The translations under genes and the position numbers were made by a program. The notes below the pieces were generated by a model. It made no database searches and had not been told where the DNA came from. It saw nothing but the letters and a program-made list of their open reading frames with translations. Below are positions 3,032 through 56,893 of a stretch of DNA of 64,000 bases, piece by piece. Each line of letters opens with the position of its first letter. The first letter of the stretch is position 1. Source of the stretch: Deinococcales bacterium (GTDB lineage Bacteria; Deinococcota; Deinococci; Deinococcales; JAAFIG01). The DNA is taken from the NCBI GenBank assembly GCA_025352125.1, contig JANXTZ010000018.1, positions 1-64,000 of the forward strand, written 5' to 3'.

Positions 3032-3091
3032 AATTGCTGTCTACCCTCATCCCTAACCCTTCTCCCAACATCAGGAGAAGGGAATTTTATT
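3032..3091 (+). repeat. REP-like extragenic repeat, family 1
   Basis: aattgctgtctaccctcatccctaacccttctcccaacatcaggagaagggaattttatt; related copies at ~29.98 kb and (inverted) ~50.65 kb. Confidence 0.75.
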
Positions 3092-29570: not shown

Positions 29571-29862
29571 AGGAGTTTTCATGCCCCCCGCCGCTCGAGC
29601 CACCGACACGCACATTTGCCCCAACGGAGTACCAGGCGTCTTGCTGCCGCCCGTTGGAGCGCCGTCAAGCGTCAAGATTGGCGGGTTGCTGGCGGCATAC
29701 GTCACCACCCCAGCCACGCCCTGCGCCCCAGGTCCAAACACGGTGATCAAAGGCTCGAGCAAGGTCAAGATTAACGGGATGCCCGCCGCCCGAATCGGTG
29801 ACAAGACCGCGCACGGCTCGACCATCACCACAGGGTTTATGACCGTGATGATCGCCGATTAA
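29563..29862 (+). CDS. PAAR-domain spike tip protein
   Basis: PPAARATDTHICP...SSKVKINGMPAARIGDKTAHGSTITTG. Confidence 0.9.
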   Translation: MVKGVFMPPAARATDTHICPNGVPGVLLPPVGAPSSVKIGGLLAAYVTTPATPCAPGPNTVIKGSSKVKINGMPAARIGDKTAHGSTITTGFMTVMIAD

Positions 29863-29900
29863 ATTTGAGACACGAAAATCAGCAATTGTTCTACCCTCTC

Positions 29901-29975
29901 TTGACCATAGACGTGCACCTCTCTTGATCCCAAGCGTGCACCTGACGGGCGGGATCGCTAACGGGCATGGTCGCT
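29901..29975. repeat. Nested pair of 36-bp palindromic elements (outer copy split by an inner copy)
   Basis: Outer = ttgaccatagacgtgcacct (29901-29920) + aacgggcatggtcgct (29960-29975); inner = ctc + ttgatcccaagcgtgcacctgacgggcgggatcgct (29921-29959). Confidence 0.85.
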
Positions 29976-30098
29976 CACCCTCAACCCCTCTCCCAACATC
30001 AGGAGAGGGGAGTTTTATTGCGTTCCGCGTGTAGCTCGAGGATTTTTCTTCTCCCACTTGTGGGAGAAGGTGGCGAGGAACGAGCCGGATGAGGGTTT
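29976..30098 (+). repeat. Composite REP-like repeat (family 1 + family 2)
   Basis: caccctcaacccctctcccaacatcaggagaggggagttttatt ... cttctcccacttgtgggagaaggtggcgaggaacgagccggatgagggt. Confidence 0.75.
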
Positions 30099-55924: not shown

Positions 55925-56893
55925 TCACACGTCATAACCACACCCAGCGAACCAACCCCGCACCAACACGCTAGAAACCAACTCATGAACCAAACCAATC
56001 CCAACCAGCAACTCATCCACACGACGAGCCGCTAAAGATCGTAACTTCTGCTTCAACCACGAAAACAAACTCTCAATAGGATTGAAATCAGGACTGTACG
56101 CAGGCAAAAACACTAAACTACACCCAGCCTCAACAATCAAAGCTTTGACCTCAGCCCGTTTATGCGCCGCTAAATTATCCAAGACCACCACCTGACCTTG
56201 CTTCAGATTTGGCACGAGGACTTCTTGAACAAAAGCCACGAACACATCCCCACTCGTCCCACCAGCGATAACCATGTCCGCGATCACACCCTCGAGTGAA
56301 ATCGCCCCAATCAAGGTTTGCGTTTGACCTCGTTGCTTTGGTGCAATCCCATAAGCTCGTTGACCTCGAATCGCTCGAGCGTACAAGCGCGTGAAGGCTG
56401 TGTGCGTGCCTGTTTCGTCAACGAACACCAAATCTTTTGGCTTGAAAGCTCCGATCATCTCAAGCCAGATCAATCGAGCAAATTCGTCACGTTCACTTGG
56501 TTGAATTGTTTCTTGACCATGAACACGCACCTAACGGGCATGGTCGCTTTTTTTGATACTGATTTGCAGTCGTTTCAAAGCCCGTTGCATGGTTGGTATG
56601 CTGACTTCAACGCCAGTGGTTTTGTTCCAGGTTTGGCAATGTTCTTCGAGGGTTGCGTCGTTGTTGGCTTGAACTTGGGCGTGTAAGGTAGGGGCGTATT
56701 CGTCGCTGATTTTTCGTGAGTTTGGTGGTTTTTTGGTTGGTTTGAGGTTGTTCAAGTCGCGGTTTAGTTGTAAGAATCGGTAGACACTGGCGATGCTGAC
56801 GATGAAACGTCTTGCTGCTTGTTCGGGTGTGTTTTTGTCGTGTTTAACGGCTTGGACGATGCGGGTGCGTAGGTCGAGACTGATGGGATTCAT
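55925..56893 (-). pseudogene. IS630 transposase split by an in-frame TAG carried by a 39-bp insert
   Basis: ORFs 56531..56893 and 55925..56530 share one frame: ...ISIKKSDHAR*VRVHGQETIQPSERDEF...; DDE residues in VDETGTHTAF, VVLDNLAAHK, LPAYSPDFNPIESLFSWLK. Confidence 0.85.
56513..56548. repeat. Third copy of the 36-bp palindromic element, inside the IS630 transposase
   Basis: ttgaccatgaacacgcacctaacgggcatggtcgct; 36/36 alignable with the outer copy at 29.9 kb. Confidence 0.85.

Follow-up and report, generated by a model that had tools for sequence, protein, structure and literature searches.

A short hairpin that lies inside another copy of itself, with a third copy further along the same stretch of Deinococcales DNA (64,000 nucleotides, hereafter the window), raises the question of whether it is a mobile element and, if so, of what kind and how it moves. 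The earlier note had read the nested pair as a 36-bp palindromic element inserted into its own kind. When the inner segment (CTCTTGATCCCAAGCGTGCACCTGACGGGCGGGATCGCT, 39 nt) is excised, the outer copy is rejoined as CTCTTGACCATAGACGTGCACCT followed by AACGGGCATGGTCGCT and matches the lone copy, so that the reading of self-nesting stands; its start point of 29901 does not, as the outer copy begins at 29898 (CTCTTG...) (Table 1). The motif GCACCT-N0-2-ACGGGC occurs twice in the window with 0.02 occurrences expected, which places the element far above chance. By translation, the lone copy puts an in-frame TAG into an IS630-like transposase and the gene is broken. A further match reported by the element finder at 3088 was discarded as a false positive. 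Just 5′ of the nested element, at 29581-29862, lies a gene for a PAAR-like protein.

Table 1. Element copies and associated features in the window
Feature	Position	Strand	Basis
Outer element, 5′ half (unpaired foot CTCTT, stem GACCAT, spacer, GCACCT to the insertion point)	29898..29920	+	sequence
Inner nested element, stem GATCCC/GGGATC, between outer CACCT and AACGGGC	29921..29959	+	sequence; covariance model E 8.2e-10
Outer element, 3′ half (AACGGGC, stem ATGGTC, GCT)	29960..29975	+	sequence
Dispersed palindromic host repeat CACCCTCAACCCCTCTCCC...GGAGAGGGGAGTTTTATT; family members insert repeatedly at its 5′ edge, ACCC^T	29976..30017	+	sequence
Element-free copy of that host repeat (empty site)	3048..3089	+	empty-site search
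Third element copy, stem GACCAT/ATGGTC, antisense in an IS630-like transposase gene	56510..56548	+	covariance model E 9.1e-10
Reading frame of the IS630-like transposase that the 56510 copy disrupts	56201..56893	-	translation

Family size and distribution

The family is far larger than the three copies from which the earlier note had worked. A covariance model built on 18 copies gave at least 143 matches in the source genome (G000; 4.53 Mb, 84 contigs), which is a lower bound because 150 candidates only were scored. In pattern searches of the same genome, GYGCACCTRACGGGC was matched exactly eight times against none for the reversed control, and CACCTRACGGGC with at most one mismatch 148 times (58 of the 148 exact) against 58 for its control. 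The element is carried by all four genomes of its family and by seven of the 112 genomes of its order, spread over three families. Among the matches listed when the genome collection was scanned with a pattern, all came from Deinococcales MAGs except one contig of a Kapaibacterium MAG (L099), which is probably a misbinned Deinococcales IS3-type element, being IS3-like and as rich in CTCGAG as these genomes. By eye, CTCGAG appears strikingly frequent in sequences of the source genome and of its relatives.

Plasmid sequences searched with the locus gave no match, and nor did Rfam covariance models run against the window; the impression that the element matches no known family has held. We conclude that this is a real and mobile element, specific to its lineage and with a structure under selection.

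Structure of the element and covariation of its stem

The element is about 37 nt long (36-40 nt). Its 5′ foot (TTCTT or T(G/C)TCTT) is fixed and unpaired and leads into a stem of about 6 bp whose first base is G and whose sequence is free to vary yet nearly always complementary; next come an A-rich spacer or bulge on the 5′ side only and a constant mini-hairpin at the apex, GC-A-CC-(TNNC or TNC)-GGGC. The 3′ end consists of the complementary stem and then GC, the element stopping two bases past the stem; the 5′ end shifts by one or two bases among subfamilies. The apical loops of 194 distinct elements include TGAC (92), TAAC (31), TTC (18) and TCAC (13), and are almost always T-NN-C or T-N-C, so that the opposite strand reads GNNA or GNA. 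Sequences of the GNNA and GNA type form very stable DNA mini-loops, and their presence on the opposite strand is suggestive only.

The elements use 42 distinct 5′ stems, and stem pairing reached 87%, compared with 57.5% when partners were shuffled between elements, in a set for which the finder demanded at least four pairs. With copies selected by the core only, and no stem requirement, pairing was 86.9% versus 64.6%, and 105 of 145 copies paired at 5/5. In a model-fitted alignment, 142 stem cells had changed on both sides compared with 49.6 ± 5.1 after shuffling, and 93.8% of cells were paired compared with at most 56% once the partner was slid, although the core-only test weighs more because such an alignment leans towards structure. 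Together, the two-sided changes and the fully paired copies bear out the selected hairpin with covarying stems that had been proposed from three copies.

Compensatory changes show that the fold matters, as it would for a hairpin of use to the chromosome (a terminator, an mRNA stabiliser or a protein-binding site) whose duplication is incidental, and many copies do adjoin other hairpin repeats. Such a role nevertheless strikes us as improbable: copies have entered MurI, tRNAs and transposase genes and are distributed patchily within one order, as fits a selfish element, and the lack of an Rfam match in the window likewise counts against it. Conservation of orthologous positions between species, which would favour such a role, was not noticed for any copy.

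Evidence for mobility

The element is mobile. What had been proposed from a single nested pair is now carried by nested events, by the size of the family, and by sites that are both empty and occupied within one genome. The nested events number 33, of which 25 are in the source genome and eight in other genomes; they reach up to three deep and all lie at one site, CACC^TRACGGGC.

Polymorphism between empty and occupied sites, a check put forward in the earlier note, is present in the source genome itself, both in IS1-like copies and in a host repeat. In the IS1-like insA gene, contigs C84 and C34 carry the empty site GGTTTCGCCCCAGAC, and contigs C18, C19, C20 and C65 have identical flanks and an insert of 38 nt; the same 38-nt insert is found on C4 in a diverged lineage. 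The ends of this insertion are ambiguous by 3 nt (CGC), with no longer duplication. The dispersed host repeat, CCCTCATCCCCRACCC^TTCTCCC...GGGAGAAGGG, is occupied in about 13 clear copies (14 rows), always at the same position, AACCC^TTCTCCC, which hosts at least five different stem subfamilies, and is empty in about 18 copies, including that at 3048 in the window. Another copy of the repeat (L272) is occupied in its apical loop and, when compared with an empty copy (L235), gives the precise pair TTCTCTC^AACATCGAGAG.

Many copies are carried by host repeats or by IS elements present in several copies, and the hairpin could therefore be thought immobile, spread passively on IS elements or larger repeats while template switching keeps its stems palindromic. 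We judge this very improbable. It is already contradicted by the empty and occupied pairs, and these, together with the presence of different subfamilies at exactly one host position, nesting to three deep and the tRNA and MurI insertions described below, need insertion of the hairpin itself. In a JANYHH MAG, an IS-like palindromic end bears the element in about ten copies (L077, L086, L092, L100, L103, L118, L120, L137, L140 and L149), which indicates that this IS spread after the element had inserted.

Target choice and insertions in tRNA and protein genes

Judged from the known empty sites and the flanking bases, the element enters at C^N and in most cases at C^T, for which ACC^T and GC^T are frequent contexts. 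CT precedes TCTTG in 103 of 130 events in the source genome, the base after the last GC of the element is T in about 77% of cases and mostly C or A in the remainder, and the target is not duplicated except for microhomology of 1-3 nt. A tight hairpin (at least 7 bp) surrounds the junction in 11 of 98 hosts, compared with 1.1% of control SCT sites (P = 3e-8), an enrichment of hairpin loops of about tenfold over SCT controls and about eightfold (odds ratio) over local sites. Outside the nested and tRNA sites most hosts have no strong hairpin, and a loose RNA-fold test of the insertion sites gave a weak difference (50% versus 39%). No strand bias was seen relative to GC skew (30:40, P = 0.28), though skew read from 20-kb MAG pieces serves poorly as a proxy.

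In four tRNA genes the element has entered the anticodon loop in sense orientation, between C32/U33 and N34 (33/34). Three of them, Arg(TCG), Gln(TTG) and Leu(TAG, nested), belong to the tRNA array on contig C5, and Arg(TCT) on C35 is interrupted by three copies; for each, an intact isoacceptor or an alternative decoder is encoded elsewhere in the genome. The array itself (G000:C5:749-4738, L074) consists of some 20 tRNA genes, diverged and all on the same strand; many repeat isoacceptors present in the chromosome, and at least three are interrupted by the element. A tRNA-like sequence on the minus strand at L235:8050-8220, perhaps Ile(GAT), has an antisense element in its D arm.

In the MurI gene on contig C45, a nested pair adds 75 nt, equal to 25 in-frame residues. 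The insert is missing from the G001 and G002 orthologues, which align across it, and the alignment to the glutamate racemase chain 5w16_A breaks at this point; a second clear MurI was sought in the source genome and not found. Antisense 39-nt copies with the TGAC loop translate to peptides such as SDPARQVHLLGQE, and several antisense copies sit in long open frames as candidate 13-residue in-frame inserts, MurI being the one case compared with homologues. TAAC-loop copies can hold an antisense TAG, as does that at 56510. Copies in frame within proteins and copies in redundant tRNAs would, under the explanation we favour below, be the survivors that selection tolerates.

These insertions also bear on a possible mobility at the level of RNA, in which the RNA of the element would be put into the loops of structured RNAs by a nuclease and a ligase, reverse-transcribed to DNA and possibly spliced out. 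All four anticodon-loop insertions are in sense at 33/34, a classic point of RNA cleavage, loops are preferred as targets, and one variant of the apical loop is of the UUCG type, an extra-stable RNA loop. We nonetheless find this account doubtful, since the sense bias is explained by the CT in the anticodon loop and the copy in the tRNA D arm appears antisense. Splicing as a mini-intron, a candidate prompted by the anticodon-loop and IS1 insertions, was rejected as unnecessary: each interrupted tRNA has its intact isoacceptor or alternative decoder, element-free IS1 copies could give transposase in trans, and in MurI the frame continues through the insert, making its removal needless.

Search for a mover or a parent element

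The earlier note had suggested a RAYT/TnpA-REP or HUH transposase as the mover, and a Y1_Tnp search of six genomes (G000-G003, G110 and G005) linked none to the copies. The matches in the source genome are a TGA-broken IS200-like gene, one gene that lacks the HUH motif and one fragment at a contig end. Intact, ordinary IS200-type genes that differ from each other are present in G001 and G002, and G003 has a partial Y1_Tnp. No element copies lie near the Y1_Tnp genes of these four incomplete MAGs, and the element-bearing genomes G110 and G005 (58% complete) gave no Y1 match, an absence that is weak evidence because the assemblies are incomplete.

The 5′ foot and bulged hairpin resemble the ends of IS200/IS605 elements (PMC8266576), and the copies might accordingly derive from one larger IS that encodes the mover, as its MITE-like remnants or its terminal hairpins. 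We think this unlikely, and no longer element with these ends was found among the half-elements. Half-elements with stems pairing across up to 6 kb enclosed no transposase gene, the space between them holding almost only another element copy or one unrelated 43-nt insert, and neither target duplication nor terminal inverted repeats outside the hairpin are present. At L082:828-906 the core of an element is split by about 43 nt of other hairpin-like sequence (GTCGCGCCCATGG...GGAGCGA), which may represent a second family with the same target.

A model for movement and comparison with known systems

We propose, with moderate confidence, that this is a non-autonomous, REP/RPE-like element of one hairpin, which is mobilised in trans in the form of single-stranded DNA. 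In this model, the single-stranded element would be recognised through its fold, and a structure-specific nuclease acting in trans would cleave behind a C at each end, much as the IS200/IS605 or RAYT HUH enzymes do; the enzyme itself may already have been lost from these genomes. The hairpin loops among which insertions are enriched include the element's own apical loop, hence the nesting, and tRNA anticodon loops. The lack of target duplication fits the IS200/IS605 type, whereas the absence of a linked HUH enzyme, of a GC-skew strand bias and of a strong hairpin in most hosts speaks against the model. A more tentative possibility is a minimal new class of transposable element, a 37-nt hairpin homing to hairpin loops by a mechanism other than that of IS200/RAYT, such as RNA-level insertion or a new loop-specific nuclease.

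The element that we take to move as single-stranded DNA shares with REPs a high-copy hairpin of 20-40 nt, compensatory stem changes and an unpaired 5′ motif, and the TnpA-REP of S. maltophilia cleaves at CT (PMC8266576). In the excerpted text of PMC3733652, REPs are reported within genes and within other palindromes, and self-nesting at one exact loop position, present in our element, is not described. The GTAG or CGTC terminal tag of REPs is absent, the ends being 5′ TTCTT and 3′ GC on the top strand, and among the Y1_Tnp matches of G000-G003, all incomplete MAGs, no RAYT gene is flanked by element copies as in a REPtron. The element works like a REP/RPE-type selfish hairpin, with a mode of movement that we infer, yet it is not filed in the REP family because it has neither the tag nor the RAYT linkage. 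CGTC REPs likewise lack a transposase and the question of their movement is still open (PMC3733652).

With IS200/IS605 ends the element has in common a bulged hairpin, an unpaired 5′ foot and insertion without target duplication, but it has neither a transposase between ends nor a second end. It differs from MITEs in that no parent IS was found among the half-elements and no duplication beyond microhomology in the IS1 sites. The double-hairpin elements of fungal and algal mitochondria are also small mobile hairpins, but are organellar and have two hairpins.

Few mobile elements for which the target is defined and the history of insertion can be read directly would be smaller than this one. Since successive events are ordered by their nesting, and empty sites share the genome, it offers a clean system for the study of REP-like hairpin movement. 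The cyanobacterial small dispersed repeats (SDR), reportedly described by Elhai et al. in 2008 as very small and mobile without an enzyme of their own, are on that description similarly small and enzyme-less, and differ in sequence and host. Rickettsia palindromic elements measure about 100-150 bp, so that ours is smaller (36-40 nt), and it has another core and a host from another phylum. PMC3733652 describes the Rickettsia elements as palindromic, selfish and found in frame in protein genes that are likely still functional. In-frame insertion into protein genes is shared by our element, through the 25 residues in MurI and the candidate 13-residue inserts, and nested mobile hairpins are tolerated within MurI, probably an essential enzyme.
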